Shown here one piece after another: positions 26,893 through 61,648 of a DNA stretch of 64,000 nt; positions within the stretch are counted from its first letter, which is position 1; every line of letters starts with the position of its first letter. Under the pieces are notes generated by a model, which was not told the origin of the DNA, did not search any database, and was given only the letters and a program-made list of their open reading frames with translations. This DNA is from Agaribacillus aureus (GTDB lineage Bacteria; Bacteroidota; Bacteroidia; Cytophagales; Cyclobacteriaceae). The translations under genes were made by a program, and so were the position numbers. The stretch is taken from contig JAUJEB010000001.1 of NCBI GenBank assembly GCA_030442055.1, positions 3,162,001 to 3,226,000 of the forward strand, in the 5' to 3' direction.

Positions 26893-27048
26893 TATAGCCT
26901 ATGACCTATAAAAATACGAGCTAACCAATCAAACCAGTTTTCGGATAAAGTACCCCATGCTGCTTGAAGTTCATTGGGGAATGCCTTGTAAGCATGCATG
27001 AGGTACGGGTTCCTGATAATTATTTCTTACCAAAAACCTTTTTTAATT

Positions 27049-30486: not shown

Positions 30487-30509
30487 TACAAATCGAAAAG
30501 AATAATACT

Positions 30510-31961: not shown

Positions 31962-32001
31962 GATACACCTAGTTCATAATAATTAAGAAGTACCCGTGAT
32001 C

Positions 32002-32034
32002 AAGAAGAGGTAGTAAAATGCCTCTTCTTTTTTA
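32002..32034 (+). terminator. Intrinsic terminator after susD
   Basis: A perfect 9-base stem, AAGAAGAGG (32002-32010) with CCTCTTCTT (32021-32029), with a 10-base loop and an immediate T-run. It ends the sigma/FecR/SusCD transcript, so the following PhoD-like gene has its own promoter or depends on read-through. Confidence 0.85.
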
Positions 32035-32079
32035 ATATTTTAAAATAAATCGCAGAATTAGCATAATTATTCCCTCTTT

Positions 32080-34815
32080 ATGGAAAAACATACTGATAGT
32101 TCAAATGATGGCTTTATCAATAGAAGAGAGTTTGTTAAGAAAGCCTCAATAACAACAGGCACAGCAGCCATCATGCCTTCTCTACCTGGATTTGGCGCTA
32201 AATCTTTAAAAGCGAACACGATAACATTGGATGACTTTCAAAGGCCTGACAGTCTTTACCATGGCATTCAGTGGGAAAGCCTGAATCCCGGCTACTGGCA
32301 GATAAAAAACAATACCCTCAGGCGCCGATTAAAAAATGTGGGAGATAGAGCGCGACAAACCGGTTTTCCATATCACTATGAGACCCACCAGATAAAAGGT
32401 AAAGAAACCGGTGTAATGGAGGTGGCCTATGACCCCTCGCTGCCATTGGGAATAATATGGAATAGAAACTGGAAGCTTACAGGAGGCTATTCTATCACTG
32501 TATCCGGCAGCATACACGAAGTTACTCCTGAACCTTCCCGATCAGATGACAAGGCAGATTGGCTTATGTTTCAAAAGGGTAATGGCATGGCAGGAATTGC
32601 CTTTGGTGGCAAAACACAGTTCGAAAGTTTTTACCCCAATAAGAACGCCAGTTGGATGGCTGTCATAAAAGATGATAACACATTTGGTATAGCAAGACAC
32701 GTAAACTGGTCACTGGAAACTGCCGATAAGGGAGGTATCGTCCAAATAAAACCAATCAAAAAAGGAGATAAATTTAAAATCGAGCTAAAGGTAAAGCCTC
32801 GCCGAAAAGGAAGTGAGGTAACGGCGCGATTGACCATGAATGATATTGACCAATATGAGGTCAAAAGTTTTATTGACGAAATAAAAAAGACTGATGGGTA
32901 TCCGGGAATTGTCGGCCGTGGACTTCTGGATTTCTCCGTAGATGATATACAACTTGAGCACGGGAAAAACAAAGCCTTAAATGCTCTAATTAACGAATGC
33001 CACGGTTGTTATGCCTTAGGCGACACATTGCGACAGGAGAACGGACAATGGAAAGTCCGTTTTATAGCCATATTTCGCAATGATGGCGAAAAAGCGGAAA
33101 TACGGATCAGTGATGAGCCTAAACCTTCACAAGGTTGGCAATCAATGAAACCCGCCGGAAGTGGCTCGATCATCAACAATGATTTCAGAAGAAATACCGC
33201 CATTATTGATGTTATACTTCCTTACAACCCCTCGGAAAAGACGATGTATTATACCGTTTGGAAGGACAATGAAGATGTGACTGCGGATCCCAGGATTGGT
33301 ACTGACGGCGCAGGGCCCGGAACAGGGATGGTTGGTGACATTCCGTCAGACGGAAGATATGTCGGCCGGCTGCCGCAATTAAAAGCACCCTACAAACTAT
33401 GTGGGCTAAGCTGTCATGCCATCAGCGGGGGAGGTCCTAAATTACCAGGCGGTAAACGTTGGGAGGGTTTTTACGTGCATGATCAACCTACTTACGGCGC
33501 ATACAAGCACCTCGACGACTATAACTTTCAGATAATGTTGTGGGAGGACGATATCTGGTACATGGAGTTGCTACTTTATCCGCCAAGCACCGATGATGCC
33601 TATAAAATTGTTACAACCTCCATATGCGGACCCACAAGCCGGTGGCAAATGATGCGTCATTGGAATATACTTAATCCCGGTGACCATGACCATGGCATGG
33701 ATGACGTCAAAGGACCTGAGCAGATAGCTATCCGAAACCATAAAGACCTGGGACAGGATCCCGGCTATATGATCCGTAATTTTCAGATCGTCAGCCATCT
33801 GATGACCGGAAAAGAAAACCCTTCCGGCAAGGATAATCCAAAGCGTTGGCGTAAATGGAAAATGCCCAATAAAGACTTTACGTTGATGATCATGGACTCC
33901 CGCCTCTGGAGGAGCTCACAAGACACAAATATCTGGGACGATGAGGGTTGGGGACACAAGGAAAACCTTTACGACCGGACCGATCCTACCAGGAGTCTCC
34001 TGGGTGAGGAGCAATTTGCATGGCTGCAGGAAAACATACGGACAGATACATCGCCGGTTATTTGTCTCACCGGGATCAATGCGCTTCATACCATTTGGAA
34101 AGGCACCTACTGGGGAAAGCGAGCGGAAGAATTGGGGTCATTTAATGCCCGGGACCGGGTAGCTGCAGACTATGCCGGCTGGGTCGGCGCCGGCGCTGAT
34201 AGAATACTGGAGCTGCTCGGAAGCCGCGATGGCATAGTTACCGTGTACGGAGATGTGCATAATGGCAGCATCATCAAAAATACCAGGCATAATCTTTATG
34301 AATGTTCTTTCGGGCCAATAGGCAGAAGTGGTGGACGCGAAGTAGTTGATGGATTTGGCCCCTTGATGAAAGACTTTGACGGAAGAGAACTGGAGGCCAT
34401 CGCACTTTATCATCAGAAATATGATAACGTCATGCTCAAGAAAGAAGACGGGCCCTATTATTGGAATTTTTTGGAAATGATGTTTGATCCTCGCGACAAC
34501 CATCAAAAAATTGAATTCAAGATACGAAACCTTATTGATGCGCCTTCGGATCGTTATCGCGGTGGCAATTTCGTTTCGGACACCATCTCCAACACCGGCA
34601 GGCCTTACGCCAGCAGCATTCCCAAGATCAAAACTTTGCCGGATGCAGACATTCTTTTTCTACGCGACAACGGTCAGCCCATTCGAGGTTGCCGAAGTAC
34701 TGCCGAGGGAGTGGTACCAGTGAATGGACTGGTTGATGTAATGCCGGGACAGAAAATCTTAATGTTTGCCAATGATGGCAAAAAAGTTGACTCTCAAATA
34801 TTAATTACAGGGTGA
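32080..34815 (+). CDS. Tat-exported multidomain protein with PhoD-like metallophosphatase domain
   Basis: 911 residues. The N-terminus carries a twin-arginine signal (NRREFVKKAS, then a hydrophobic stretch TGTAAIMPSLPGFG), so the folded, probably metal-loaded protein is exported by Tat. Residues about 45-290 look like a concanavalin/laminin-G-type beta-sandwich. A central Ig-like region follows (about 310-420). The C-terminal half resembles alkaline phosphatase D (PhoD): FTLMIMDSRLWRSSQ, then GDVHNGSI as a GDxH-type metal-binding motif, and ECSFGPIGRSGGRE. PhoD enzymes cleave phosphomonoesters or diesters. I do not see the first metal-binding GD motif in its usual place, so the catalytic state is uncertain. 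The gene follows SusCD after a terminator and could supply a phosphate-cleaving step for the imported ligand. Confidence 0.7.
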   Translation: MEKHTDSSNDGFINRREFVKKASITTGTAAIMPSLPGFGAKSLKANTITLDDFQRPDSLYHGIQWESLNPGYWQIKNNTLRRRLKNVGDRARQTGFPYHYETHQIKGKETGVMEVAYDPSLPLGIIWNRNWKLTGGYSITVSGSIHEVTPEPSRSDDKADWLMFQKGNGMAGIAFGGKTQFESFYPNKNASWMAVIKDDNTFGIARHVNWSLETADKGGIVQIKPIKKGDKFKIELKVKPRRKGSEVTARLTMNDIDQYEVKSFIDEIKKTDGYPGIVGRGLLDFSVDDIQLEHGKNKALNALINECHGCYALGDTLRQENGQWKVRFIAIFRNDGEKAEIRISDEPKPSQGWQSMKPAGSGSIINNDFRRNTAIIDVILPYNPSEKTMYYTVWKDNEDVTADPRIGTDGAGPGTGMVGDIPSDGRYVGRLPQLKAPYKLCGLSCHAISGGGPKLPGGKRWEGFYVHDQPTYGAYKHLDDYNFQIMLWEDDIWYMELLLYPPSTDDAYKIVTTSICGPTSRWQMMRHWNILNPGDHDHGMDDVKGPEQIAIRNHKDLGQDPGYMIRNFQIVSHLMTGKENPSGKDNPKRWRKWKMPNKDFTLMIMDSRLWRSSQDTNIWDDEGWGHKENLYDRTDPTRSLLGEEQFAWLQENIRTDTSPVICLTGINALHTIWKGTYWGKRAEELGSFNARDRVAADYAGWVGAGADRILELLGSRDGIVTVYGDVHNGSIIKNTRHNLYECSFGPIGRSGGREVVDGFGPLMKDFDGRELEAIALYHQKYDNVMLKKEDGPYYWNFLEMMFDPRDNHQKIEFKIRNLIDAPSDRYRGGNFVSDTISNTGRPYASSIPKIKTLPDADILFLRDNGQPIRGCRSTAEGVVPVNGLVDVMPGQKILMFANDGKKVDSQILITG

Positions 34816-48515: not shown

Positions 48516-50276
48516 CTAGTCTCCGGAATCCGGGTTTTTTACGGCTTCACCAAAAATTGCTACTTCGGATAAACTAAAACTTGTATTTCCGGGCTTTACC
48601 CGGTCAAATACTATTTTAACCCAGTCTACCTTTTCCCTGTTGCCCCAACTAATGTCAAGCCCATCCAACGCCGTGTTCGGAAGCGGGACCCTGATGGGAA
48701 TTTTACGTCCATTACTAAATTCAACATAGCCGAATTTCTCAATATCCTTTTTATTTAAACAATTAAATAAGCGCAATGATCGAATAATCTGTGGTCTATC
48801 CCATGCTAATTTTACCCATGCTGCCCCGTCTTTACTTTCGGAGATCCAGCGATCGCTAATGCCTTGCTCAGGCTGACATACCTTGCCGTTAATCAAGTAA
48901 CCCGCGGACGAGCCGGCCGACTGCGAACTTGCGGAGATGGTGGCTTTAGTTGCCACATTTTTCGGGTCACTCCACGCCTGACTTGCCTGAAACTGCTGTT
49001 TATCATCGCTCAGCAATTTAACTTCATAAAGACAAAGACCATACCTGCCATTTGGTGGATTCCGAGGCAGTTTTTTATGCTCACCATAATTACCCGAATA
49101 GCAAAGCCACATGGTTTTCCCATCATCACTGATAAATTTTGATGGAAAATTCAGGAAATATGCTTGCGTGCCAAATTCCTGCATGTATGTAACCATTTTC
49201 CATGGACCGGTAATTTTATCGGCTTCTAAAATATACGAGTCCATATTTGACCGTGTGCGCCAGCCATCTGTTACACACATAAAATACTTCTTCAATGGCG
49301 CATTATAGGTTACAGTTACGCACCCCATGTGGTTATTCCAATCGAGCAAAGGTTTAATCTTCTCAAAGTCGTTTGTCCAAATAGGTTCACCATTGGCGTC
49401 GTGACCAGCAAAAAACTCGTATGCTTTAATATCATTGATGTTTTCGATCGTTGGCGTAACCCTGGTCAAATAAACCTGATCGGCTGATACCCAACTTAGG
49501 TTGCCGAATCGCGGCATCGGATCGTCATCTTCCGCGCCCATACAAACCATATAGGCTTTCCCGTCAGGAGAGTGTTCCATGTTTTTTCCAAAATCAACAA
49601 AGTGAGGAGCACCCATTTTTACAGCACCAAAAAGTTCCGTGGGTTCAGGAAAAAGTGGTTTCTCGGTGGTTAAGGGAGAAGGTGTCCAGGTTTTTCCATA
49701 GTCTTCTGAAATTCGGAACCCGGGCATCGGCCCTAATATTGGCCATCCATAACGATAACCATCATCAACGGTGTTAACAGTAACGCCCAGCAAATAAGTG
49801 CCATAATACCAGACACCATTATACAAAAGGCTGCCGCAAGGGTAGCGTCCACCATAAGGATAAGCTCTGGCGATCTGGGTTCCAGATGTATTTTTAATTT
49901 CAAGATCCAGGGGATCATCACCTATCATAACAACATTACCCGTAGTCGAGGATGGGTCGGCAGAGTAACTGTTAATACCATCGGTGGTTCCATCGGTAAA
50001 AGGAGAATAGAGGTTACCGTCGGATGCCCATGACGGGTAAAAAGTATCACCGCAATAATAATCACTGTTCTTTCCTGTAAAGTAAATCCCATTTATCTCT
50101 TTCGATTGGGCAAAAGGACATTCTCCAGGCGTTTGATTGGGCCATAAAAACCCTTTAAAAGACATTTTGGACGGATCTTTACCCGCTTGGGCAAAAGATA
50201 TGTGGCCAGATATTAACGTCAAAAATAGCAGACCGGCTACTGTAAAAATCTTGTTTCCCTGAACAACACTTTTCAT
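48516..50276 (-). CDS. Secreted five-bladed-propeller-like hydrolase with discoidin-like C-terminus (paralogue of the 59912 gene)
   Basis: 586 residues with a signal peptide (VAGLLFLTLISGHISFAQ). The N-terminal 420 residues have repeated blade-like phrases and motifs shared with the protein at 59912-61648: YPSWASDGNLYSPFTDG, MGAPHFVDFGKNMEHSPDGK, NLSWVSADQVYLTRVTP and KYFMCVTDGW. The overall style (GDTF at a blade end, many Asp/Trp) recalls DUF4185-type propellers, a family now known to include GH183 endo-D-arabinanases, but I have not verified this. The last 140 residues look like a galactose-binding/discoidin fold (SAGSSAGYLINGKV and RSLRLFNCLNKKDIE), probably a carbohydrate-binding module. 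It is the last gene of the sugar-oxidation cluster and is 114 bases from the transporter gene. Confidence 0.6.
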   Translation of the reverse strand: MKSVVQGNKIFTVAGLLFLTLISGHISFAQAGKDPSKMSFKGFLWPNQTPGECPFAQSKEINGIYFTGKNSDYYCGDTFYPSWASDGNLYSPFTDGTTDGINSYSADPSSTTGNVVMIGDDPLDLEIKNTSGTQIARAYPYGGRYPCGSLLYNGVWYYGTYLLGVTVNTVDDGYRYGWPILGPMPGFRISEDYGKTWTPSPLTTEKPLFPEPTELFGAVKMGAPHFVDFGKNMEHSPDGKAYMVCMGAEDDDPMPRFGNLSWVSADQVYLTRVTPTIENINDIKAYEFFAGHDANGEPIWTNDFEKIKPLLDWNNHMGCVTVTYNAPLKKYFMCVTDGWRTRSNMDSYILEADKITGPWKMVTYMQEFGTQAYFLNFPSKFISDDGKTMWLCYSGNYGEHKKLPRNPPNGRYGLCLYEVKLLSDDKQQFQASQAWSDPKNVATKATISASSQSAGSSAGYLINGKVCQPEQGISDRWISESKDGAAWVKLAWDRPQIIRSLRLFNCLNKKDIEKFGYVEFSNGRKIPIRVPLPNTALDGLDISWGNREKVDWVKIVFDRVKPGNTSFSLSEVAIFGEAVKNPDSGD

Positions 50277-50390
50277 GGTATTAAATATTTTGTGTTAAAG
50301 CTATTTCAAAATTGTTTATACTATATTCCGTTTCAGGACAACGGGACCCGATGGAAGCCGCTGCCGCCAATGGCCATTTTAAGCTTATCT

Positions 50391-51851
50391 TCAGTTGCCA
50401 TGAAGTGTTTTGCTTGCATTGGTTTGTTCATTCTTGTCAGACAATGAGGACACTTTCCAAATTTCCCTTATCGACTCCAGGGATTTATTTTTTGTTTCGG
50501 GCACATAGCGCCAAACAAAAAATAAGGCAGCTCCGCAAAGGATACCGTAAATTATAAAGGGAAAGCCATGATTAAATGTGCTGACTAACCATGCATGGCC
50601 GTCCATCATGGGAAATGTCTGTGATACCATAAAATTGGTCATCCATAAAAATATGGTAGCAATGGCCATAGCCCTGCCCCTCATTTTGGTAGGGAAAATT
50701 TCAGCCAGTATAACCCAGGTTACCGGCCCCACAGAAAAGGCAAAACAGGCCACATAGCCAAGTATAAATAGCAAAGTGCCTACCCCCTGCAGCTGTAGTG
50801 TAGCACCAATCCCCAGTGCCAGTAATGAAATGCCCATTCCCGAATATCCCCAGAGCATTAAGGGCCTCCTTCCCACCTTGTCAACCGCCAATATGCCAAC
50901 GACAGTAAAAGCCAGGTTTACCGCCCCTATTATAATAGTCTGTAACAAGGCTACATCCATTCCCTGCTTTGAGATACCTTTCAGAATTTCCGGGGCAAAA
51001 TACAGAATGACATTAATACCGGTACTCTGTTGAAAAAAGGCCAGGCCCAGCCCCACAATAAGGGCCATTCTCAGCCCAGGTTTAACCAGCTGATCCAATG
51101 TAGCAGATTCTTCAGAAAGTGACTCCTTGATTTCCCGCATCTTCACCTCGGCATTACCAGCCCCTTCTACCAGGCCGATAATGGTCATGGCATTTTTCTC
51201 CCGGTTTCGCTTTAAGAGCCACCTGGGGCTGTCTGGCACAAAAAACAGTAAAACCAGCAGCAGTAAAGCCGGAATGGCTTCCGAACCAAACATCCAACGC
51301 CATCCACTCACCACATTCCAGCTATCGACTGAGTCCTCCGCCACGCCCATCGACGCGTTAAACCCTGCACCGTAACCGGCGATAAAATAATTGGCAAAAT
51401 AAACGATCAACATACCGGCGATGATAGCCAGTTGGTTCAGAGATACCAGACTACCCCGATACCTGGCCGGGCTAAGTTCAGCAATATACATGGGGCTGGC
51501 CATGGAGGCAGCCCCTACGCCAATACCACCCAGTATCCTGAAAAGTATAAACTGTGAAAAGGTTTTGGGCAGGGCAGTACCAAGGGCAGAGATAAGAAAA
51601 AAGACGGCAGCCAGTAAAAGTACATTCTTTCTTCCTAGCCGATCGCTCAACACACCGGACAATAAAGCGCCAAATACACACCCCAAAAGCGCACATGACG
51701 CCGCCCAGCCAACTAATTCGGGCGAAAGCTCAAAATGTATCCGGAGATATCCTATCGCCCCTGCAATGACTGCTGTATCATAACCAAATAACAGCCCGCC
51801 CAGGGTAGCGACCAGTGATACGCGGACAACGTAGATCAGATTTGATTGCAT
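50391..51851 (-). CDS. Sugar:proton symporter (MFS sugar porter)
   Basis: 486 residues with 12 membrane helices. Classical sugar-porter signatures are present: GGLLFGYDTAVIAGA, DRLGRKNVLL, PDSPRWLLKR, QQSTGINVILYFAPEI, DKVGRRPLMLWG and PETKNKSLESI. It belongs to the XylE/AraE/GalP group of monosaccharide importers. It lies directly after the aldose epimerase gene in the catabolic operon, so it should import the pentose or related sugar that the pathway oxidises. Start fixed by the conserved first helix. Confidence 0.92.
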   Translation of the reverse strand: MQSNLIYVVRVSLVATLGGLLFGYDTAVIAGAIGYLRIHFELSPELVGWAASCALLGCVFGALLSGVLSDRLGRKNVLLLAAVFFLISALGTALPKTFSQFILFRILGGIGVGAASMASPMYIAELSPARYRGSLVSLNQLAIIAGMLIVYFANYFIAGYGAGFNASMGVAEDSVDSWNVVSGWRWMFGSEAIPALLLLVLLFFVPDSPRWLLKRNREKNAMTIIGLVEGAGNAEVKMREIKESLSEESATLDQLVKPGLRMALIVGLGLAFFQQSTGINVILYFAPEILKGISKQGMDVALLQTIIIGAVNLAFTVVGILAVDKVGRRPLMLWGYSGMGISLLALGIGATLQLQGVGTLLFILGYVACFAFSVGPVTWVILAEIFPTKMRGRAMAIATIFLWMTNFMVSQTFPMMDGHAWLVSTFNHGFPFIIYGILCGAALFFVWRYVPETKNKSLESIREIWKVSSLSDKNEQTNASKTLHGN

Positions 51852-51907
51852 AAGTTTTTGTTATTTTATACTATGCCCAAGGTTTTCTAAATTCACACGC
51901 ATCATTT

Positions 51908-52852
51908 TCATCTCTCATTTATTCTCAGGCTAAACGCCAGTTCTATCGCCTCCCCTTCGGCCAGGGTAATAAGCCCATGACCATTATTAAATGCATCGGG
52001 CGCGGCAGTCATAGGCTCTATGGCCAGACAATCCCGGTCCGGGGGTGTGAAATACATACAATAATTGTAGCCGCCCGGTCCCGTTTGCTGATCAATGAAT
52101 ATTTCCAGATCCTTGTCAGGATCGTAGAGGCTGGTACGACCTGGCTTGTTCACCTGGTAGCAGTCGTTCATAAAATCATTGGAGATAGCCGCATACTCCC
52201 GGAATTTCGGGTTGTTCTTTATAGTACCGATTGGGATGTATTGGGTGTCTTGTTCAAAGGTCTTTTCTCCGGGGATTTTGAGTTGCAGCTTGTCTATAGG
52301 TGTGCCTGTGGCAATGTAGGGGTGCCAGCCCATTCCAAAAGGGATTTTTGTTCCCGATTCATTGCACGCATACGACCTGATACGCAATTCATTCTCTGAT
52401 AATTGATACGTATTCCTGAAAAAAACTTTGAATGGATAACCGATATCACCATGAAATGAGCATTCCAACGCCAGTCGGCCTGCTTCCTGGTCAGGTGAAG
52501 ACACCTTAAAAGGTGTTTTGTACAGAAAACCATGCAAGGCATTTGGAAGTCCGGGGTCAGTGTGGTCTAGTAAGTAAGTGGTACCATTAAACTCGTAACG
52601 ACCGTTGGCCACCCGGTTGGGAAATGGTGCCAGAAAAGTCCCGGCATACAATGGAATGGATACGGCGTTAAAAGCATCGAGACTTTTGGCTGCCTTATGA
52701 ATGGGATGCAGGTCGTTATTCTTTTTTAAAACAACCTCATTGATGGCTCCGCCATATCGCGGAACAATGTTAACATATTCACCGGTTTGAAGGTTTTTAA
52801 TTTCCACCACATCCAGGCCATCCATCAATTTGTCTTCTATTTGAAAACTCAC
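51908..52852 (-). CDS. Aldose 1-epimerase
   Basis: About 314 residues, taking the GTG at 52852, which overlaps the previous stop as GTGA; an upstream frame open to 52936 would overlap it by 88 bases and adds nonsense residues. The galactose-mutarotase fold is visible: TGEYVNIVPRYGGAINEV, LPNALHGFLYKTPF (His), CSFHGDIGYPF, and MGWHPYIATG. It interconverts the alpha and beta anomers of the sugar before dehydrogenation. It is in tandem with the FAH-family gene and the transporter. Catalytic Glu likely near SLRINE, not certain. Confidence 0.85.
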   Translation of the reverse strand: MSFQIEDKLMDGLDVVEIKNLQTGEYVNIVPRYGGAINEVVLKKNNDLHPIHKAAKSLDAFNAVSIPLYAGTFLAPFPNRVANGRYEFNGTTYLLDHTDPGLPNALHGFLYKTPFKVSSPDQEAGRLALECSFHGDIGYPFKVFFRNTYQLSENELRIRSYACNESGTKIPFGMGWHPYIATGTPIDKLQLKIPGEKTFEQDTQYIPIGTIKNNPKFREYAAISNDFMNDCYQVNKPGRTSLYDPDKDLEIFIDQQTGPGGYNYCMYFTPPDRDCLAIEPMTAAPDAFNNGHGLITLAEGEAIELAFSLRINER

Positions 52853-54048
52853 CCCATTCTCCTTTCCAATATAAAATCTACAAAGGCGCCAATGCCAAAT
52901 TCCCATTTGGGTAACTTGTGGCAATGGTTTACCCAATTGACTTGTTTACCGAGGTGGGTGGAATATATCGCTACCTGATCCCCAATTTTATGTGTAAACC
53001 CGTGACCGGGGTTATCGCGGTCTTTGGTGGGGGCAAACATTGTTCCGCAGAATAGAACCAGACCATCCGGATATTGGTGGTTGGGACCGATGGCCTGCGC
53101 CACAAGGCTTTCCGGCGCCCTGCTGATTTTGTCCATGCGGGAAGAAGCATCCAACAAAAACGCATCCTCGCCATGGATGTTTAAATTAATCACTTCATTT
53201 TTAACATCATCAAGATTGAAAGTTTCATCAAAAAGACGAAACAACGGCCCGACGGCGCAAGATCCATTCTGGTCTTTTGCCTCACCCAGCAACAAGGCGC
53301 TGCGCCCTTCATAATCCCTTAAATTAACATCGTTACCCAACGTAGCACCTACAATTTGTCCGCGATCTGATACGGCCAGTACCACTTCCGGCTCCGGATT
53401 ATTCCAGTTAGAGTCTTCCAGCACACCTATTTCGGCTCCAAAGCCCACAGCAGAGAAAGGTTGACCTTTGGTAAAAATCTCAGCGTCTTTTCCAATGCCC
53501 ACTTCCAGGTATTGCGACCACACCCCCTGCTCCTGCAGCTCCGCCTTTAATTTCATGGCATGGGCCGAACCAGGTTCCACACTGTGCAAATCGGTGCCAA
53601 TTTTATCGGTGACCACTTTTCTTATCTCCATGGCCTTGCTTAAGTCTCCTTTAGCCTTTTCTTCGATCACCCTTTCCAGAAGGCTTTGGATAAAGGTGAC
53701 ACCACAGGCCTTTATCGCCTGCATGTCGTTGGGTGAGAGGAAATACGGAATGGTTTGATCAAGATCGGAAAAAACTGAGTTTTGAAGAATCTCGGACAAA
53801 GTCCCTAATAATGGCAGGTCCGAAAGACCTTTAATGACCTGAACCGGATCCTGTGTGTTTATTAACTGGCTCGTAGTGTCAAAATGCTCCGAAAGGTCGT
53901 AAACAGCACCGTTTTTCACCAGTACCACATGTGGCCCGGCCACCCCTTTGTACGCTAGACGCTCTGGCACCTGGCAGCGCCCGACCCATGTCCCTACTTT
54001 TCCCTGTTGAGGAATTACCTCATTAATATCAAGTTGTCTCGTTTTCAT
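52849..54048 (-). CDS. FAH-family 2-keto-3-deoxy-aldonate dehydratase (XylX-like)
   Basis: 399 residues, longer than most fumarylacetoacetate hydrolases, similar in size to the FAH-family 2-keto-3-deoxy-pentonate dehydratases of non-phosphorylative sugar pathways (Caulobacter XylX, archaeal KdaD). The metal-binding acid pattern is visible in FGAEIGVLED and PEPEVVLAVSDRGQIVG, followed by GNDVNLRDYEGRSALLLGEAKD. It should dehydrate 2-keto-3-deoxy-pentonate to 2,5-dioxovalerate. ATGA overlap with the aldehyde dehydrogenase gene upstream and GTGA overlap with the epimerase gene downstream show tight operon structure. Substrate stereochemistry (xylo or arabino) is not determined. Confidence 0.82.
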   Translation of the reverse strand: MKTRQLDINEVIPQQGKVGTWVGRCQVPERLAYKGVAGPHVVLVKNGAVYDLSEHFDTTSQLINTQDPVQVIKGLSDLPLLGTLSEILQNSVFSDLDQTIPYFLSPNDMQAIKACGVTFIQSLLERVIEEKAKGDLSKAMEIRKVVTDKIGTDLHSVEPGSAHAMKLKAELQEQGVWSQYLEVGIGKDAEIFTKGQPFSAVGFGAEIGVLEDSNWNNPEPEVVLAVSDRGQIVGATLGNDVNLRDYEGRSALLLGEAKDQNGSCAVGPLFRLFDETFNLDDVKNEVINLNIHGEDAFLLDASSRMDKISRAPESLVAQAIGPNHQYPDGLVLFCGTMFAPTKDRDNPGHGFTHKIGDQVAIYSTHLGKQVNWVNHCHKLPKWEFGIGAFVDFILERRMG

Positions 54049-55607
54049 GCGTTAATTTTATTAGTGGTGAATTCCCCGTTGACAAGGCGATTGACGCCCA
54101 TCGGATTATCGTCTTTCAAGGCCAGGGGCAAGTGAGTTTGTGGAGCATCCTGGTAGCACACTACCTTGCAAAACCGCTCAATGGCCGCTGTGCCTACCGA
54201 GGTGGCAGTCGCAAATGTGGTAGAAGGGTATGGCCCGCCGTGGTGCATGGATGGACATACCTCCACCCCTGTAGGGAAACCATTAAAAATAATTCGCCCC
54301 ACTTTTTCCTCAAGGGCCAGCTTAATGGCTCCTGCTTCCGCATCCTCATTGCTATGGATAGTACCGGTTAAATGCCCACCTAATTGATCGATTGCCTGCA
54401 TCATTTCCTCCTGGTTTTCACATTCTATAAGCAGGGCTGCCGGGCCAAAGACTTCTTCTTCCAGGCCCGGGTTGGCATTGAAATCGGCAGCCTTTACCGT
54501 AAACAATGTAGCGCTGGCCATATCGGTACCAGCCAAGGCGGTCAATGCTGGATTGTTAACATAGGCACTGATTTTTTCTTTGTAACCGGAAGTAATACCT
54601 GCGTTGAGCAAGTTGCCAATCTGTATTTTGCCGATAGCCTCGACAAGTGCTTGCTTAAAGGCTTCCTGATCAGGTGTTTTCAACATGAAGACCAGCCCGG
54701 GCTTTGTGCAAAACTGCCCAGCTCCCAGCGTAATGGAGCCAGCTAGCCCGGTAGCAATTTCGTTTCCCCGATTTTCCAATGCCTTCGGCAATATAAATAC
54801 CGGATTGGTGCTGCCCATCTCCGCATAAACCGGTATGGGTCTTGGTCTGGCGGCACCGGCATCAAACAATATCCTTCCTACGCGGGAGCTTCCCGTAAAC
54901 CCCACTGCCTCTAATTTCGGATGTTTTACAAGATGAGTGCTTACCTCCGGATCCCCTCCCTGAAGCAGACTAAAAACGCCGGCGGGCATGCTGTGTTTTT
55001 TAATGGCATTGGTTATGGCCACTGCACACAATTCAGAGGTAGCGGGATGACTTGGGTGACCTTTCACTACCACCGTATTGCCTGCAGCCAGGGCTGAAGC
55101 CGTGTCTCCTCCCAAAGTCGAAAATGCCAGGGGAAAGTTAGAAGCGGAAAAAACGGCTACAGGACCAATTGGCTGCAATACGCTGCGGATATCCGGTTTG
55201 GGTATCGGCTTACGGTGGGGTATGGCCGTATCGATCCTTGCCTGCTGCCAGCTGCCCTCTCTTATGAGTGATGCAAACGCTCTCAATTGACCACAGGTTC
55301 GGCCCCGCTCACCGGTAAGTCGGGGAATGCCCAGCCCGGTCTCTTTATTGCAGGTTTCTAACAACTCGTCACCAAGAGCTTCAATTTCACTGGCAATTTC
55401 ATCGATAAATGCAGCTCTTTGTTCAAATCCAAATGATTTGAAAATCCTGTAGGCCTCATAGGAACCATGCACGGCCTCATCAATTTGAGAAAGGCCTACT
55501 CCTCTAAAGTCATTTAGTTTTTCATTAGTAGCCGGGTTGTAAGATGAAAATGGCGTCCCGGATCCATCGGCCCAGGTCCCGACGATTAAGCTTTTTCCAG
55601 ATATCAT
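54045..55607 (-). CDS. 2,5-dioxovalerate (alpha-ketoglutaric semialdehyde) dehydrogenase
   Basis: 520 residues. Aldehyde dehydrogenase signatures are intact: NAD(P)-binding GNTVVVKGHPSHPATSE, VGFTGSSRVGRILFDAGA, catalytic Glu in AEMGSTNPVF and the nucleophile Cys in GAGQFCTKPGLVF. The sequence style matches the type III alpha-ketoglutaric semialdehyde dehydrogenases found with sugar-acid and hydroxyproline pathways. It produces 2-oxoglutarate for the TCA cycle, the last step of the Weimberg-type route. ATGA overlaps connect it to both neighbours. Confidence 0.9.
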   Translation of the reverse strand: MISGKSLIVGTWADGSGTPFSSYNPATNEKLNDFRGVGLSQIDEAVHGSYEAYRIFKSFGFEQRAAFIDEIASEIEALGDELLETCNKETGLGIPRLTGERGRTCGQLRAFASLIREGSWQQARIDTAIPHRKPIPKPDIRSVLQPIGPVAVFSASNFPLAFSTLGGDTASALAAGNTVVVKGHPSHPATSELCAVAITNAIKKHSMPAGVFSLLQGGDPEVSTHLVKHPKLEAVGFTGSSRVGRILFDAGAARPRPIPVYAEMGSTNPVFILPKALENRGNEIATGLAGSITLGAGQFCTKPGLVFMLKTPDQEAFKQALVEAIGKIQIGNLLNAGITSGYKEKISAYVNNPALTALAGTDMASATLFTVKAADFNANPGLEEEVFGPAALLIECENQEEMMQAIDQLGGHLTGTIHSNEDAEAGAIKLALEEKVGRIIFNGFPTGVEVCPSMHHGGPYPSTTFATATSVGTAAIERFCKVVCYQDAPQTHLPLALKDDNPMGVNRLVNGEFTTNKINA

Positions 55608-56500
55608 GAGTTAGTGTTTAGATCATTCATTTTATATGGTAAAACACCCTTGTAGGGCAGCTTGACCTTAAATAAGGAACCTGACAGAGGATACTTGTCT
55701 AATTGATCAGCATCCATCAGGTAACACGCGGTAGTGATGTATAATTCATCTAGATCGGAACCCCCAAACGCACAGGATGTGACCTTGGGTACCGGCAATA
55801 CGACTTGAAAAACTATCTCCCCGTTTTGTGGGTTTACTCTTACCACTTTACTCCCGTCAAATAATGCTACCCACAAAAAATCCTCTGCATCGATCGCCAT
55901 CCCATCGGGTAGCCCCATTGCTTTATCGATGCAGGCAACGACCTTCTTATTTTGAATATTTCCGGTTTTTGAATCATAGTCATAGCAATGCACCTCGTAG
56001 GTCATGGAGTCTATGAAGTAGAACTTTGTACCATCGCCATTCCACACCAGGCCATTGGAGATGGTGGTGTTGGTGATCTTTTCCTTTACCCCACCAGAGG
56101 CGTCAAATTCATATAAAATACCGGCGCCTTCCCGGCAGTCGTAGGCCATCGTCCCTGCCCAAAACGTTCCCCGGGGGTCACATTTTCCGTCATTAAAGCG
56201 TATGTGTGGATTAGCCAGTTCGGGTTTGGGACCTTCCGTGCGCTTCCCGGTTTCAGGATCCAGAAATCCTACACCATTTTGATCTGCGTAAGCCCACAGC
56301 CCCGATTCGGTCAGCACGACGGTACCGATATCCTGTCCCAGATCAAATCCTGAATTGCGGCCGGTTTTTGGATCAAAAGAAAATATTTTATGATCGAGAA
56401 TGTCTACCCAAAGCAGACATTGATTGGCGTGATCCCAGAGGCTGCCTTCACCTACGATTGCCCTGATGGGATACGCCAGTTGCGCTTCTATACTTTTCAT
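55604..56500 (-). CDS. SMP-30/gluconolactonase-family sugar lactonase
   Basis: 298 residues, the typical family length. Metal-binding and substrate loops are recognisable as GEGSLWD, TISNGLVWNGDGTKFYFIDS, and LPDGMAID, in a six-bladed propeller. It opens the aldono-lactone made by the SDR dehydrogenase to the free acid. It belongs to the same operon by a 4-base overlap with the aldehyde dehydrogenase gene; the dehydratase gene lies 34 bases upstream. No signal peptide, so cytoplasmic. Confidence 0.9.
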   Translation of the reverse strand: MKSIEAQLAYPIRAIVGEGSLWDHANQCLLWVDILDHKIFSFDPKTGRNSGFDLGQDIGTVVLTESGLWAYADQNGVGFLDPETGKRTEGPKPELANPHIRFNDGKCDPRGTFWAGTMAYDCREGAGILYEFDASGGVKEKITNTTISNGLVWNGDGTKFYFIDSMTYEVHCYDYDSKTGNIQNKKVVACIDKAMGLPDGMAIDAEDFLWVALFDGSKVVRVNPQNGEIVFQVVLPVPKVTSCAFGGSDLDELYITTACYLMDADQLDKYPLSGSLFKVKLPYKGVLPYKMNDLNTNS

Positions 56501-56534
56501 TTATCTCGAATAGTTTAATTGCCGTTTTTATTCA

Positions 56535-57704
56535 TTACCAATCCAATATGGCATTGTCATCGTCTCTGATTGTATTTGAATGCATTATTTCCTGCTTAAA
56601 AGGATGTTTTTTGGCTTCCTTTTCATTGATTTCAATGCCGAGGCCGGGCCTGGTTGGCACCGCCCAAAAGCCTTTTTCAGAAGATATTTCGGTTTCTACT
56701 ACATCCCATCGCCAGGGCACATCTGTCAGCATATCCTCCTGGATCAAAAAGTTTGGGGTAGACAAGGCAAAGTGAAGCGCCACGGCATTGGCCACAGGTC
56801 CCAGGGGATTATGTGGTGCCACCCCCATATTGTATACTTCTGCCATAGCCGCAATTTTTCTGGCGGCCCAAAGCCCTCCACAATGGCATAAGTCAGGCTG
56901 AATTACATGTACCGCATTTTTCTCAAAAATCTCCTTGAAATGATAGATAGAAACATGCCTTTCGCCGGTTGCAATTGGCACCTTGGTATGGTCGGTTACC
57001 ATTTTGATGGTGTCAATGTTTTCCGGCCTTACCGGCTCTTCGCAAAAGAAGGGATGAAACTCTTCGATGGCATTGATGTATTGAATGGCCATGGCAGGAG
57101 TGGTACGCCCATGAAAGTCCACCATGATGTCGATATCGGGACCAACAGCCTCTCGAAGTTGTCCGAACATGCTGGCGAATTGTGTGACTTTCCCTCTCCC
57201 TTCAATGGTTTTTGAATAGGGAACAAACACTACTTTTAAGGCGGTGTACCCTTTGTCGATCACATCGTGGGCTAACGCAATGAGCGGCTCTACCGAGAAG
57301 GTTTCATACACAGCTTTCATATCGCCACCACCCAGGTGGGTATACATCCGCACCCGGTCCCTTACCTTCCCCCCTAACAGATGATACACCGGCACGCCCA
57401 GTTCTTTTCCTTTAATATCCCAAAGCGCCTGTTCTATGGCCGAGATGGCCGACATGCCAATCACGCCCAGTGCCCAAAACGACTGACGATACATCTTTTG
57501 ATACAGATGCTCGATGTTTAATGGGTTTTCTCCAGTCAGCATGGCTTCAAAGTCTTCTATAGCCCCTACTACTGCCCTGGTTTTCCACTCAAGGGAGGCC
57601 TCTCCCCAGCCGAAAACACCGGGTTGGCTGGTCTCTACTTTCACAAATACCCAATTCCGCATTTGCGCATTAACCACGAGTGTTTTGAGTCCTGTGATTT
57701 TCAT
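56535..57704 (-). CDS. Enolase-superfamily sugar-acid dehydratase (DgoD-like)
   Basis: About 389 residues from the ATG at 57704; longer frames overlap the SDR gene and add residues without sense. It resembles the galactonate-dehydratase type of the mandelate racemase group: SAISAIEQALWDIKGKELGVP, metal ligands in MVDFHGR (Asp), FFCEEPV (Glu) and ATGERHV (Glu), and the catalytic His region APHNPLGPVA. It removes water from an aldonate to a 2-keto-3-deoxy acid. D-galactonate itself is unlikely here because the next steps lack an aldolase and match a pentonate route. This enzyme replaces the IlvD-type dehydratase of Caulobacter xylose operons. Confidence 0.85.
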   Translation of the reverse strand: MKITGLKTLVVNAQMRNWVFVKVETSQPGVFGWGEASLEWKTRAVVGAIEDFEAMLTGENPLNIEHLYQKMYRQSFWALGVIGMSAISAIEQALWDIKGKELGVPVYHLLGGKVRDRVRMYTHLGGGDMKAVYETFSVEPLIALAHDVIDKGYTALKVVFVPYSKTIEGRGKVTQFASMFGQLREAVGPDIDIMVDFHGRTTPAMAIQYINAIEEFHPFFCEEPVRPENIDTIKMVTDHTKVPIATGERHVSIYHFKEIFEKNAVHVIQPDLCHCGGLWAARKIAAMAEVYNMGVAPHNPLGPVANAVALHFALSTPNFLIQEDMLTDVPWRWDVVETEISSEKGFWAVPTRPGLGIEINEKEAKKHPFKQEIMHSNTIRDDDNAILDW

Positions 57705-57717
57705 AGTTGTAAATTTT

Positions 57718-58497
57718 TCATTTTGGTTGGACACCTTGTACACAATAGCCGCCGTCACACCTGATATCGGTTGCTGTGATATTGGCTGAATCATCACTGG
57801 CAAGAAATACACATACATTGGCAATTTCCCGGATCGACGCTATGGTTCCTCTCGGATGTATTTGATCAAATTCCCGAAGGGCCAAGGCGGGATCATCTGC
57901 GTTTTCTTCCACAAACCGATGAAGCATCGGAGAATCTACTGTCCCTGGCGACACGGAGTTTACCCTTATGTTGTGCGGCGCCAGCTCCATCGCATGGCCG
58001 CGGGCCAGGGCCATGAGTCCACCTTTGGTGGCACCATAAATGGCTACCTCGGGAAACCCGTTGTGACCTGTTACACTGGACATATGAATAATAGACCCTC
58101 CTCCCGATTTTTTCATCTCGGGAAACACCTGTCTGGTAAACAGGATCGGCGCTTTTAAATTAACAGCTAAAACGTGATCAATGGTTTCTTCGGTCAGTAT
58201 TTCCAGCCTGGAACCCGGCATCACAGCTGCATTATTCACCAGCACATCAACACCTCCCAAAGCATGGGCAGCATCTCTGACAAACGCTGTAATGGCATTA
58301 ACATCGCGAATGTCAATGGCCTTTGAAAAAGTTTTTGCACCGGTTTTTTCAACCAGCCCATGGGTTGCTTCCAACGCTTCACTGTTGATATCACAGATGG
58401 CAACAGCTGCCCCTTCATCCGCAAAGGCAAGGGCAATTCCCCGGCCTATACCGTCTCCGGCTCCGGTGATTATACAGCATTTACCGTCAAGTTTCAT
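57718..58497 (-). CDS. SDR-family sugar dehydrogenase
   Basis: About 259 residues from the ATG at 58497. Classical SDR features: cofactor loop TGAGDGIGRG, Asp in AICDINSE favouring NAD, NNAAV, catalytic S-Y-K (SSVTGHNGFPEVAIYGATK), and the PGTVDSPM loop. It should oxidise the aldose at C1 to a lactone, the entry step of the pathway. It ends 13 bases before the dehydratase gene start. The 137 bases upstream, to the regulator gene, contain a 10-bp palindrome (GTGATATCAC, 58583-58592). Confidence 0.88.
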   Translation of the reverse strand: MKLDGKCCIITGAGDGIGRGIALAFADEGAAVAICDINSEALEATHGLVEKTGAKTFSKAIDIRDVNAITAFVRDAAHALGGVDVLVNNAAVMPGSRLEILTEETIDHVLAVNLKAPILFTRQVFPEMKKSGGGSIIHMSSVTGHNGFPEVAIYGATKGGLMALARGHAMELAPHNIRVNSVSPGTVDSPMLHRFVEENADDPALALREFDQIHPRGTIASIREIANVCVFLASDDSANITATDIRCDGGYCVQGVQPK

Positions 58498-58582
58498 ATG
58501 TTTAGGATTTTCATCGGACACGATTGGCAATCTTAATTTTTCGCGAGGTCAAATACCGTCCGGGACAGTGGTGGCTCAAGCC

Positions 58583-58592
58583 GTGATATCAC
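58583..58592. promoter_or_regulatory. GTGATATCAC palindrome before the sugar-oxidation operon
   Basis: Perfect 10-bp palindrome in the 137-base gap between the regulator gene and the SDR gene. Short, so chance is possible, but its position suits an operator for the catabolic operon. Confidence 0.3.
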
Positions 58593-58634
58593 AGATTTTA
58601 TGTAGTAATCGTCCATCATTAAACTGGTTATCTA

Positions 58635-59666
58635 TTATAGTGAATCCCTCATAATCAGTTTTGTTTCTACCTCTTCCTTCATTTCCTGAGGGCCATCAAG
58701 TATGTATGAAACGGCTTTGCGGCCGAGTTGCTCAAAGTCCGTCGATATGACTGTAATACCATCAGCTACCACCCGCTTTATGGGTGAATCATTATAAGAA
58801 ATAAGCCCACAGTCTTTTCCCAGTTTGAGGCCAGTATCCCTGGCTAGTGTGATAATTTCTACCATATCCAGGTCATCGATCACAAAAAATGCCTCTCCGC
58901 TATTTACCTTTTCGACGTTAGACACGATTTCATGGGTTATGCCATTTTCTTTGCAAAAGCGGGTAAACCCTTTCTTAATTTCGCGAGGGGCCTTGGCAGC
59001 ATTGGAAGCGATAAGTTTGGTATCGGAAAATACCAGGGTAAATTTTTCGTAGTTACGGATACGGTCTTTAGCCAATTGCAAACAATCATAAACTGCTTCA
59101 TCAAAATTCTGAACAATGTAATTGCCAAAGTCCGTCGGAAAATATTCTTTCCTATCCAGGGCAAGTACATTCCTGCCTTTTAGTTTTGCCAGTATTGAGG
59201 AAACCTTAGCATGATTGAAGGGCATAACTACAAACACATTGTAGCGATCGATGTTATTGAGAATCAAGGATTCAAACACTTCGATGTTACAGTGATGGAA
59301 GTAAACATCTACATTGGCTACTTTTTTATCCAGGCCCTGTAGCAATGTATTGTAAAGTATTTTTTTGTACTCGGAAAGTTCATCAAAAAGCAAGAATACA
59401 TTTTTTGTGCGACCCACTTTATCATTGGCAACGAAGTATCCCTTGCGCAGCTCAGACCGGATTATGCCAAGTTCTTTTAATTCATTGTATGCCTTGATAA
59501 CCGTCTCCTGGGCCAGGTTATGCTGCAGGCATATTTCCCGGATCGCCGGCAATGGATCACCTATTGACAGGCCTTCACTACGAATCATTTCTTTCACACC
59601 ATTTACAATCTGAATGTATTTGGGAACGGCGCTCTCGTCTTTTATGCTTAATTTTTCTTTGACCAA
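58635..59666 (-). CDS. GntR/LacI-type hybrid transcription regulator
   Basis: About 343 residues from the TTG at 59666, chosen because the wing-helix begins about 16 residues later and family members are about 340 long; a longer open frame to 59882 lacks family similarity. The N-terminus is GntR-type (VNGVKEMIRSEGLSIGDPLP, then QETVIKAYNELKELGIIRSE), and the C-terminus is a periplasmic-binding-like ligand domain, as in LacI proteins (NVFLLFDELSEYKKI, NVFVVMPFNHAKV, and GLISYNDSPIKRVV). Such hybrids are the usual sugar regulators in Bacteroidota. It heads the oxidative-sugar operon and is divergent from the second propeller gene. Dyads and repeats at 59683-59802 are its likely targets. Confidence 0.88.
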   Translation of the reverse strand: MVKEKLSIKDESAVPKYIQIVNGVKEMIRSEGLSIGDPLPAIREICLQHNLAQETVIKAYNELKELGIIRSELRKGYFVANDKVGRTKNVFLLFDELSEYKKILYNTLLQGLDKKVANVDVYFHHCNIEVFESLILNNIDRYNVFVVMPFNHAKVSSILAKLKGRNVLALDRKEYFPTDFGNYIVQNFDEAVYDCLQLAKDRIRNYEKFTLVFSDTKLIASNAAKAPREIKKGFTRFCKENGITHEIVSNVEKVNSGEAFFVIDDLDMVEIITLARDTGLKLGKDCGLISYNDSPIKRVVADGITVISTDFEQLGRKAVSYILDGPQEMKEEVETKLIMRDSL

Positions 59667-59682
59667 AACTATTATTTTGTAA

Positions 59683-59722
59683 ATTTGAACTGCTCTGCTT
59701 TGCTCTGCTCCATAGTTCAAAT
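59683..59722. promoter_or_regulatory. Inverted repeat enclosing a direct repeat, upstream of the GntR gene
   Basis: Arms ATTTGAACT (59683-59691) and AGTTCAAAT (59714-59722) are perfect complements. Between them the direct repeat TGCTCTGCT occurs at 59691-59699 and 59701-59709, a 10-base period of one helix turn. It sits 17 bases before the chosen start. Probable operator or promoter region of the regulator. Confidence 0.5.
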
Positions 59723-59776
59723 AAACAAAAATTAAAATTTGTTTCCAACTATTCCGTGGCGGATCTGAAAATGGTG

Positions 59777-59802
59777 CCATCATTGGGTTCCCAATGTGAT
59801 GG
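59777..59802. promoter_or_regulatory. Second dyad in the divergent GntR / propeller-hydrolase region
   Basis: CCATCATTGGG (59777-59787) faces CCCAATGTGATGG (59790-59802). The inner seven bases CATTGGG/CCCAATG pair perfectly and the outer CCATCA/TGATGG pair across a two-base bulge. A likely regulator-binding site 110 bases before the 59912 gene start. Confidence 0.5.
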
Positions 59803-59911
59803 ATAAACGATGGTTTGGCGTCATACTGCGGTAATAGGGTGAGGCTACTAAAAATACCCTTGCTACAAACATGGCAGCACAAGGTGGCAAGGCGTAAAAA
59901 TGCTACAAACT

Positions 59912-61648
59912 ATGAAAACGAAAATGCTTCTGTTAGGCTGCGTCATATATACACCATTGGTGTTTGGTCAGTTTTCTGAATCAGTCATCCATTTAAAACC
60001 AAAGCCATGGGGACCAATGATCTGGGAATCGAAGCCACCGGCGGGTTGTCCGGTAGAAAATTCGGAAGAACTTGTGGCTGTGATGTTCACCGGACAGCAT
60101 GCCGATTATACTTACGCAGATACCTGGTACCCCAGCTGGGCAGCCGACGACAATCTTTACTCCCCCTATACCGATGGTGTGAGTGGTATATGGAGGTTAT
60201 CGCGTTCCAACACCGGCAAAGACGCTGTAACCGGCCAGGCAAAAATAGTTGGCGATGATCCGATGAATTTGAAGATTACCTCACTCGGGGCTTTTCCCGG
60301 ATCGGCCGCACCATACGTGGGAAGGTATCCATGTGGAAGCCTAGTTCACAATGGTATATGGTACTATGGGACCTATTGCCTGGATCAAAGGCCGGCGGGG
60401 TACAACCTGGGAACGTTAGGCCCTTTCGTTGGCTTTCGCGTATCGACAGATAAGGGCATAACCTGGCAAGACGGTCCTTTCTCATGCGAAAATTCACTCT
60501 TTAATGAATCCGGGAAAGACGGATCAGTGGTCAAAATAGGCGCTCCGCACTTTGTGGACTTCGGTAGAAATATGGAACATTCGCCGGATGGTAAAGCCTA
60601 TCTTGTGGGACATGGCGCTATGCCAAATGATCCTGAACCACGACCTGCCAATTTGAGTTGGGTTAGCGGAGATCAAATATATTTAACAAGGGTAAAACCC
60701 ACTGTAGAAAATATTAATGACCCGTCGAAGTATGAATATTTTTGTGGTTTTGGCAAAAAAAATACGGCCATCTGGTCTTACGATTTTTCTAAAATCAAGC
60801 CAATATTCGAATGGAATAATCATACCGGATGCGTGACCATGACTTACAACGCGGCTTTAAAAAAATACATCATGTGCATTACCGACGGCTGGCCCACCTT
60901 AAAATTTATGGATACTTACTTTTTGGAATCAGATCATATTGAAGGCCCGTGGAAGTTAATCACGTATATGGAAAACTTTGGAGAGCAAGGTTATTTCGTA
61001 AATATCCCAACCAAATTTATATCAGATGACGGGTTCACCTCCTGGTTAAGTTATTCGGGTAACTTTGCGCCATTTACCGACCTGAAAGTAAATCCACCTG
61101 GCGGGCGTTACGGGTTTATCTTGCAGGAAATGAAGTTTTTAGCCAGGTCGGCGTATGCAAAATATCAGCGGGAAGATAACAGTTTACAACTCAAAAAAGC
61201 TATTGAAAAATGGGCGCGTGAAAATCCTTTGACCGGTAGCTTGAATTTAGTGCGTCAAGCCAGCGTGACTGCTTCCTCGGTACTTTCCGGTTATAGCGCT
61301 AAAGCGGTCATTGACGGCGTTGTAGATGGATTCCCTAATAATCCACAATATGAATGGGCATCAAATGACCAAACGGTAAACGCCAAAATTCGCTTATCCT
61401 GGGACAAAAAAATAAAGGTCAGTAAGATCTGGCTGTTTGACCGCCCTTCTCACAACGAACATATTGTTGCAGGAGGCATAAACATGAGTGACGGCTCCAC
61501 ATTTTATTTAGGCGAATTGCCAAATGCCCAGTTGGCCGGAAAAGAAATAAGCTTTCCTTCCAAAGAGATAGAATGGATAGAATTTGTGGTGTTAGGCGTT
61601 GGCAGAGGCAAAAATATCGGATTGGCTGAAATCGCAGTATTTGAATAG
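59912..61648 (+). CDS. Secreted five-bladed-propeller-like hydrolase with discoidin-like C-terminus (second paralogue)
   Basis: About 578 residues from the ATG at 59912, which opens the signal peptide (MLLLGCVIYTPLVFGQ). It shares the propeller motifs of the 48516-50276 protein in the same order: ADTWYPSWAADDNLYSPYTDG-like start, MEHSPDGKAYLVGHG, NLSWVSGDQIYLTRVKP and KYIMCITDGW. The C-terminal 140 residues again look like a galactose-binding domain (SGYSAKAVIDGVVDG, KVSKIWLFDRP). Both paralogues lie at the edges of the sugar-oxidation cluster, and this one is divergent from the GntR-type regulator. An extracellular glycan-cleaving role is likely; DUF4185/GH183 membership is a hypothesis. Confidence 0.6.
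   Translation: MKTKMLLLGCVIYTPLVFGQFSESVIHLKPKPWGPMIWESKPPAGCPVENSEELVAVMFTGQHADYTYADTWYPSWAADDNLYSPYTDGVSGIWRLSRSNTGKDAVTGQAKIVGDDPMNLKITSLGAFPGSAAPYVGRYPCGSLVHNGIWYYGTYCLDQRPAGYNLGTLGPFVGFRVSTDKGITWQDGPFSCENSLFNESGKDGSVVKIGAPHFVDFGRNMEHSPDGKAYLVGHGAMPNDPEPRPANLSWVSGDQIYLTRVKPTVENINDPSKYEYFCGFGKKNTAIWSYDFSKIKPIFEWNNHTGCVTMTYNAALKKYIMCITDGWPTLKFMDTYFLESDHIEGPWKLITYMENFGEQGYFVNIPTKFISDDGFTSWLSYSGNFAPFTDLKVNPPGGRYGFILQEMKFLARSAYAKYQREDNSLQLKKAIEKWARENPLTGSLNLVRQASVTASSVLSGYSAKAVIDGVVDGFPNNPQYEWASNDQTVNAKIRLSWDKKIKVSKIWLFDRPSHNEHIVAGGINMSDGSTFYLGELPNAQLAGKEISFPSKEIEWIEFVVLGVGRGKNIGLAEIAVFE

Follow-up and report, generated by a model that had tools for sequence, protein, structure and literature searches.

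Within a 64,000-nt stretch of Agaribacillus aureus DNA (contig JAUJEB010000001.1, positions 3,162,001–3,226,000; hereafter the window), positions 48,516–61,648 carry what we read as a Weimberg-type operon for oxidation of a D-pentose, likeliest D-xylose. It has an enolase-type aldonate dehydratase and is flanked by two secreted propeller proteins that resemble glycoside hydrolase family 183 (GH183) and probably release the sugar that the operon consumes; we regard the chances of this reading as evenly balanced. Ten open reading frames (ORFs) are open at the coordinates listed in Table 1. The first-pass annotation, made from the sequence alone, had described a minus-strand set of five pathway enzymes accompanied by an epimerase, a sugar porter and a GntR/LacI hybrid regulator, and both the frames and their Pfam families (scan of the window proteins at E <= 0.01) agree with that description.

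The gene group of the Weimberg pathway (putative aldose dehydrogenase, lactonase, FAH-type dehydratase and 2-oxoglutarate semialdehyde dehydrogenase, with roles assigned by homology and context) was present together, and completeness of the set by family, also claimed earlier, was borne out by Pfam, by matches in the Protein Data Bank (PDB) and by parts of a Sphingomonas cluster. The FAH-family protein scored 390 bits against PDB entry 9kkt and 74 bits against 2q18, and shared 49% identity with the FAH protein of the Sphingomonas Weimberg cluster and 54% with that of genome G491, of the same class as the window's genome. The nearest PDB entries of the aldehyde dehydrogenase (ALDH) were 3v4c (450 bits) and 1eyy (424 bits), and its identity to the Sphingomonas-cluster enzyme was 44%; because it reached no equivalog cut-off among the NCBIfam matches listed, its role as probable 2-oxoglutarate semialdehyde dehydrogenase was assigned by context. 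The lactonase matched regucalcins (180 bits) and 7plb (132 bits). Against NCBIfam models, the short-chain dehydrogenase/reductase (SDR) exceeded the cut-off of a glucose 1-dehydrogenase subfamily (217.8 bits over 215), and the porter was above the cut-off of sugar-porter model TIGR00879 and below that of XylE (527 and 608 bits, respectively). A single transcript from the SDR gene to propeller 1 is likely, because the lactonase/ALDH and ALDH/FAH pairs overlap by 4 bases and the remaining gaps from the regulator to propeller 1 are small, about 13 to 140 bases with starts picked by eye; longest-ORF starts would give overlaps of SDR with dehydratase and of FAH with epimerase.

Comparison with the canonical Weimberg set on a Sphingomonas parapaucimobilis plasmid (epimerase, IlvD/Edd, FAH, SDR, SMP-30, FadR/GntR, ALDH(NADP+) and a sugar porter of the major facilitator superfamily, MFS) gave further identities of 32% for the SDR, 27% for the lactonase and 31% for the epimerase (163 residues), and no match between the porters at E <= 1e-5. 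With this cluster and the Caulobacter xylXABCD operon the window shares SDR, SMP-30, FAH, ALDH, epimerase, sugar MFS and a GntR-type regulator, whereas it differs in its gene order, in the LacI-type effector domain on the regulator, in the flanking secreted propellers and, above all, in the dehydratase: Pfam assigned no IlvD/EDD-type D-xylonate dehydratase to the operon, where an enolase-superfamily MR_MLE protein takes its place. A 2022 review assigns many of the bacterial enzymes to IlvD/EDD and the archaeal ones to the enolase type (PMC9795676; here and below, papers are cited for those parts of them that were available). Also similar are the archaeal pentose oxidation systems (Haloferax for D-xylose, Sulfolobus for D-arabinose), which have an enolase-superfamily pentonate dehydratase, in Sulfolobus together with a FAH-type dehydratase (PMC9795676, PMC6336799); the window differs from them in its bacterial host and in having an SDR where Sulfolobus has an MDR. 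FAH genes of the window type are rare in the class, with matches at E <= 1e-40 in 2 of 295 genomes, namely the window's own and G491. The latter carries a Weimberg-like set of FAH, lactonase, SDR and ALDH (L070:7628-12392), and no MR_MLE homologue was found within the 20 kb taken. An oxidative-pathway xylA has been taken from a 'Bacteroidetes bacterium' (PMC11775059), and Weimberg genes are therefore not wholly new in the phylum; our literature search found no paper naming both Weimberg and Bacteroidota.

The choice of pentose depends on the two dehydratases. The enolase-type enzyme shared 54% identity with a Bosea plasmid protein, 43% with a Halorussus protein annotated dgoD and 35% with E. 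coli DgoD. In the alignment with DgoD it has the same residues in all five columns that we take to be catalytic (D196/H198/E222/E248/H298, numbered from Met 57704), and the K-x-K motif is absent, its second strand reading K-V-V. In the mandelate racemase group, proton abstraction falls to a His for 2R acids and to the Lys of K-x-K for 2S acids; D-arabinonate is 2S,3R, and the C2/C3 configuration of D-xylonate is common to L-arabinonate and D-galactonate. Because the DgoD residues are present and K-x-K is missing, the enzyme would suit D-xylonate-type (2R) acids and not D-arabinonate. Sulfolobus Sso2665 serves D-xylonate and L-arabinonate, and Sso3124 serves D-arabinose (PMC9795676), so the C2/C3 configuration may separate such enzymes. 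For the next step, FAH-type dehydratases act on the D-form and DHDPS-type ones on the L-form (PMC7374468, PMC9795676). The FAH protein therefore points to a D-pentose, leaving it to the dehydratase to settle which one. With 2R,3S required by the dehydratase and 4R by the FAH step, D-xylose would be the sole aldopentose that fits.

Turning to the flanking proteins, propellers 1 and 2 are paralogues (45% identity) that begin with a signal-like segment (by eye) and carry DUF7402 at the C-terminus; the first-pass annotation was right on the paralogy and on their flanking position, although it is propeller 1 that belongs to the operon, and propeller 2 lies divergently on the plus strand, outside it. 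Both predicted models are five-bladed, and the nearest solved structure was that of the GH183 endo-D-arabinanase EndoMA1, with a lead of about 6 to 8 Z units and 14–16% identity in the structure search; GH43 xylosidases and arabinofuranosidases were clearly less similar. As in EndoMA1 and DgGH4185a/b, two Asp residues stand 18 apart, D74 and D92 in propeller 2 (D77 and D95 in propeller 1), invariant in 27 of 27 family sequences (the two propellers and 25 of 30 relative loci, after removal of L034, L047, L049, L051 and L053 because they were too long or truncated; a second set, A6, of 23 loci additionally omitted L035 and L037). The corresponding pair is D33/D51 in EndoMA1 and D170/D188 in DgGH4185b (PMC10509167, PMC10115798), and the starts of the structural-match ranges (model residue 42 to chain residue 2; 45 to 2-3) place D33/D51 within 1-2 residues of D74/D92. 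At the level of alignment, then, the GH183 catalytic Asp pair is conserved and, because the fold is kept as well, the propellers are probably retaining glycosidases. The third acid of EndoMA1, Glu243, aligned to Cys311, invariant in 27 of 27 sequences (gapped alignment, by eye); in DgGH4185b a Glu mutant broadly kept activity (PMC10509167 / PMC10115798). Glycan binding by the DUF7402 domains of the window propellers is likely, because they resemble F5/8-type and CBM32 domains.

The relation to GH183 itself is a distant one. A divergent protein of genome G306 (L080:2790-4043) bridges the two groups, matching PF13810 (DUF4185) at 61.8 bits over a cut-off of 39.5 and aligning with the window family in hhalign (probability 99.1%, E 9.6e-19); it stands in tandem (L080:1477-4043) beside a canonical DUF4185 protein (107 bits), to which the 27-member profile (A2) aligned weakly (probability 5.2%, E 0.0075). 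Because the bridging protein matches and yet its canonical neighbour hardly does, the propellers appear to form a sister clade of GH183 and are not detected as members. PF13810 matched 3 of the 27 members at E <= 10, weakly (best 1.8e-5). A propeller-like protein on a Novosphingobium plasmid (L083:9446-10801) fell just under the PF13810 cut-off, at 36.9 against 39.5 bits, and by eye exhibits an RR signal-like start and the same 18-residue Asp spacing. A phmmer search with propeller 1 gave four matches at E <= 1, led by polymerase basic protein 2 (E 0.04), which we took as chance.

Several results, in addition to that weak alignment, weigh against the proposed reading. On the side of the propellers, the first-pass annotation had likened them to DUF4185 and GH183 and suggested a search against PF13810; the likeness stood in the nearest structure and the conserved Asp pair, and failed in that search, where neither propeller matched at E <= 0.01. 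The A2 profile found no match among PDB sequences at E <= 10, Foldseek global TM-scores to EndoMA1 were 0.39 and 0.47 over both domains, the catalytic Asp residues were mapped by alignment and range starts instead of superposed coordinates, and DUF7402 was matched in 6 of 27 family members. Nonetheless, the guess of the propeller superfamily, made from sequence alone, was correct. On the side of the pathway, the SDR stayed under the D-xylose 1-dehydrogenase equivalog cut-off (162 vs 400 bits), and the dehydratase exceeded that of the galactonate dehydratase equivalog (367 bits over 311), a hexonate dehydratase name, and scored 279 bits against a bifunctional gluconate/galactonate dehydratase model with a cut-off of 750. 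The gene context, by contrast, speaks for a pentonate. The Sulfolobus gluconate/galactonate dehydratase does not take pentonates (PMC9795676). The genome also encodes a xylose isomerase (668 bits over a cut-off of 533), and D-xylose therefore has another route. Pfam found neither SusC nor SusD among the ten locus proteins. Finally, none of the 30 relative loci had homologues of the other operon proteins nearby (phmmer E <= 1e-5, with flanks often short), so that synteny in a single genome is what ties the propellers to the operon.

This last result bears on the view that the propellers are functionally unrelated to the operon, being enzymes or lectins secreted for a different glycan and encoded beside a pentose operon by coincidence, which we consider unlikely. 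The relatives came from one scan, in which 23 of the 30 loci were titled Planctomycetota, Verrucomicrobia, Lentisphaerae or a group within these, and others came from Flavicella and an Odoribacter metagenome-assembled genome. Among 91 of 121 neighbouring ORFs, chosen by a crude longest-ORF rule, we counted SASA esterases (7), sulfatases (5), GH127 (2) and GH2 (2), considering the best 25 of 118 families. In Flavicella, a relative whose catalytic domain shares 78% identity with that of propeller 1 is accompanied by two GH29 proteins, one GH88 protein and beta-helix proteins, and the Odoribacter relative by GH43 and GH97. These neighbours speak for another glycan; against this, the paralogues flank exactly one operon, propeller 1 lying 114 bases behind the porter and propeller 2 sharing the divergent promoter region of the regulator. 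Close relatives were scarce around the host. At E <= 1e-50 the propeller profile matched 1 of 395 phylum genomes, the window's own, a cut-off that would be escaped by the match in G110 (E 9.8e-34). That genome is the only one besides the window's own with a close propeller (54%, partial, at a contig end) among the 9 of 291 genomes of the order sample matched at E <= 0.001; the other matches covered the C-terminal domain or were weak (E 1e-5 to 1e-8). In the class, 3 of 247 genomes, among them the window's own, had a PF13810 match at E <= 1e-10. Plasmid relatives of propeller 2 comprised five partial records, three of Novosphingobium over the propeller and two others over the C-terminal domain.

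A second alternative, which we hold to be rather improbable, assigns the operon to L-arabinose or to a hexose or 6-deoxyhexose (for example D-galactose or D-fucose); the substrate of the DgoD-like enzyme would then be L-arabinonate, D-galactonate or D-fuconate. The galactonate dehydratase score and the C2/C3 configuration that L-arabinonate and D-galactonate have in common with D-xylonate are both in its favor. The name galactonate dehydratase is commonly over-assigned (PMC2781113, where the case shown is another protein). L-Pentose pathways use the DHDPS-type and not the FAH-type dehydratase, as noted above, and Pfam found no aldolase or kinase in the operon. For those steps the genome seems to have a separate set: of its two IlvD matches, both outside the operon, the better one (46%) lies at G000:C4 beside kinase- and aldolase-like genes, which by eye looks like a De Ley-Doudoroff set.

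The proposal of the first-pass annotation, in which D-arabinan would be the substrate of the propellers and D-arabinose the sugar that the operon turns into 2-oxoglutarate, now seems very unlikely, given a DgoD-like dehydratase that lacks the K-x-K Lys for a 2S acid and scores far lower against the archaeal model for arabinonate dehydratase (150 bits, cut-off 650) than against the galactonate one, the apparent loss of the Glu243 equivalent, and a Flavicella relative beside GH29 and GH88. Still, the nearest structure is an endo-D-arabinanase, all D-pentoses have the FAH step in common (PMC9795676), and Sulfolobus joins enolase-type and FAH-type dehydratases for D-arabinose (PMC9795676, PMC6336799). 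In the Variovorax (L077:5328-8176) and Paraburkholderia (L078:5344-8182) plasmids, two of the three top-ranked plasmid FAH relatives, the FAH gene adjoins one of the altronate dehydratase family, to which D-arabinonate-type dehydratases belong, an arrangement resembling the bacterial D-arabinose pathway that PMC6336799 describes; the bacterial D-arabinonate dehydratase of that paper is of UxaA/GarD type. In published D-arabinan clusters, GH183 is accompanied by GH172 and GH116 (PMC10509167 / PMC10115798). Neither family was found by Pfam among the ten locus proteins, and GH172 was absent from the whole window; its 11 matches in the genome, of which two share a 685-aa frame, all lie outside. 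For these searches we presumed GH172/GH116 Pfam correspondences beyond what the papers state. The glycan of the propellers is thus probably not mycobacterial D-arabinan. Use of D-arabinan by the organism at other loci is possible; PF13810 had two matches over its cut-off elsewhere in the genome. Our literature search found no paper joining D-arabinan with oxidative D-arabinonate or 2-oxoglutarate metabolism.

Table 1 Features of the locus (positions in the window; Pfam families and bit scores where given).
Feature	Position	Strand	Remark
Propeller 1, secreted, GH183-like five-bladed, with C-terminal DUF7402	48516..50276	-	Last gene of the operon
Sugar porter MFS, XylE-like	50391..51851	-	Sugar_tr 384.5 bits (Pfam)
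Aldose 1-epimerase	51908..52936	-	Aldose_epim 131.5 bits; probable true start ~52825 (by eye)
FAH-family protein, probable 2-keto-3-deoxy-D-pentonate dehydratase, XylX-like	52849..54048	-	FAA_hydrolase (Pfam)
Aldehyde dehydrogenase, probable 2-oxoglutarate semialdehyde dehydrogenase	54045..55607	-	Aldedh (Pfam)
SMP-30/gluconolactonase-type lactonase	55604..56500	-	SGL 257.6 bits (Pfam)
Enolase-superfamily aldonate dehydratase, DgoD-like	56535..57824	-	MR_MLE_N/C (Pfam); likely start Met 57704
SDR, probable aldose 1-dehydrogenase	57718..58530	-	adh_short_C2 (Pfam)
GntR / LacI-effector-domain hybrid regulator	58635..59882	-	GntR 89-151 and Peripla_BP_3 293-414 (Pfam)
17-nt inverted repeat, candidate operator, divergent intergenic region	59675..59730		Arms 59675-59691 / 59714-59730, 88% complementary
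Propeller 2, secreted, GH183-like five-bladed, with C-terminal DUF7402	59900..61648	+	Divergent from the regulator

The start codon of the regulator is uncertain, perhaps near 59668 (by eye), and the candidate-operator repeat sits between this probable start and propeller 2. A horizontal origin was considered and set aside, since the difference in ORF GC content between the locus (46.2%, 10 ORFs) and the rest of the window (42.8%, 33 ORFs) is too small. Elsewhere in the window, a SusC/SusD-type pair is followed by a PhoD-like protein (26998-34815), and a GH2 protein lies at 20926-23226. In other parts of the genome, four GH172 (DUF2961) matches occupy three neighbouring frames (G000:C10:8032-12448), and a second, shorter FAH-family protein adjoins a second ALDH, 48% identical to that of the window, with SusC/SusD-like genes nearby by eye (G000:C1:42000-60000, L075:7694-10132). 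A second place where DUF4185, DUF7402 and a XylE-like porter meet is G000:C5:40000-59900 (L071) with 60000-79900 (L072), which holds a SusC/SusD-like cluster (by eye), a GH92 protein with DUF7402, a DUF4185 protein (405 aa), a XylE-like MFS protein (446 bits against the porter of the window) and, farther along, a DgoD-like protein.

In the Weimberg-type D-pentose operon that we favor, the propellers would act as retaining glycosidases, tethered to the glycan by the discoidin-like DUF7402 and releasing sugar or oligosaccharides for the operon. The steps proposed here are all read from family and gene order. The porter and mutarotase would serve uptake and anomer equilibration. The SDR would then convert the sugar to a lactone, which the SMP-30 protein would open; the DgoD-like enzyme would turn the aldonate into 2-keto-3-deoxy-D-pentonate, the FAH protein would turn this into 2-oxoglutarate semialdehyde, and the ALDH would complete a non-phosphorylative route to 2-oxoglutarate. 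The GntR/LacI-type sensor may act at the divergent promoter region.

A broader proposal, tentative and in our view rather doubtful, is that the propellers represent an undescribed family of retaining glycosidases, a sister of GH183 in which Cys replaces the third acid. Its members, mostly of Planctomycetota and Verrucomicrobiota, would cut a pentose-containing glycan, and two copies would here be tied to a pentose-oxidation operon with an archaeal-style, enolase-type pentonate dehydratase. If true, one locus would lead from extracellular glycan to 2-oxoglutarate without phosphorylation. The window may also hold a pentonate dehydratase of the enolase superfamily, an unusual find in a bacterium. 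Of the whole locus, the propeller clade most deserves an assay: in this uncharacterised GH183-like set, an operon with a sugar sensor attached to two members makes the substrate testable.

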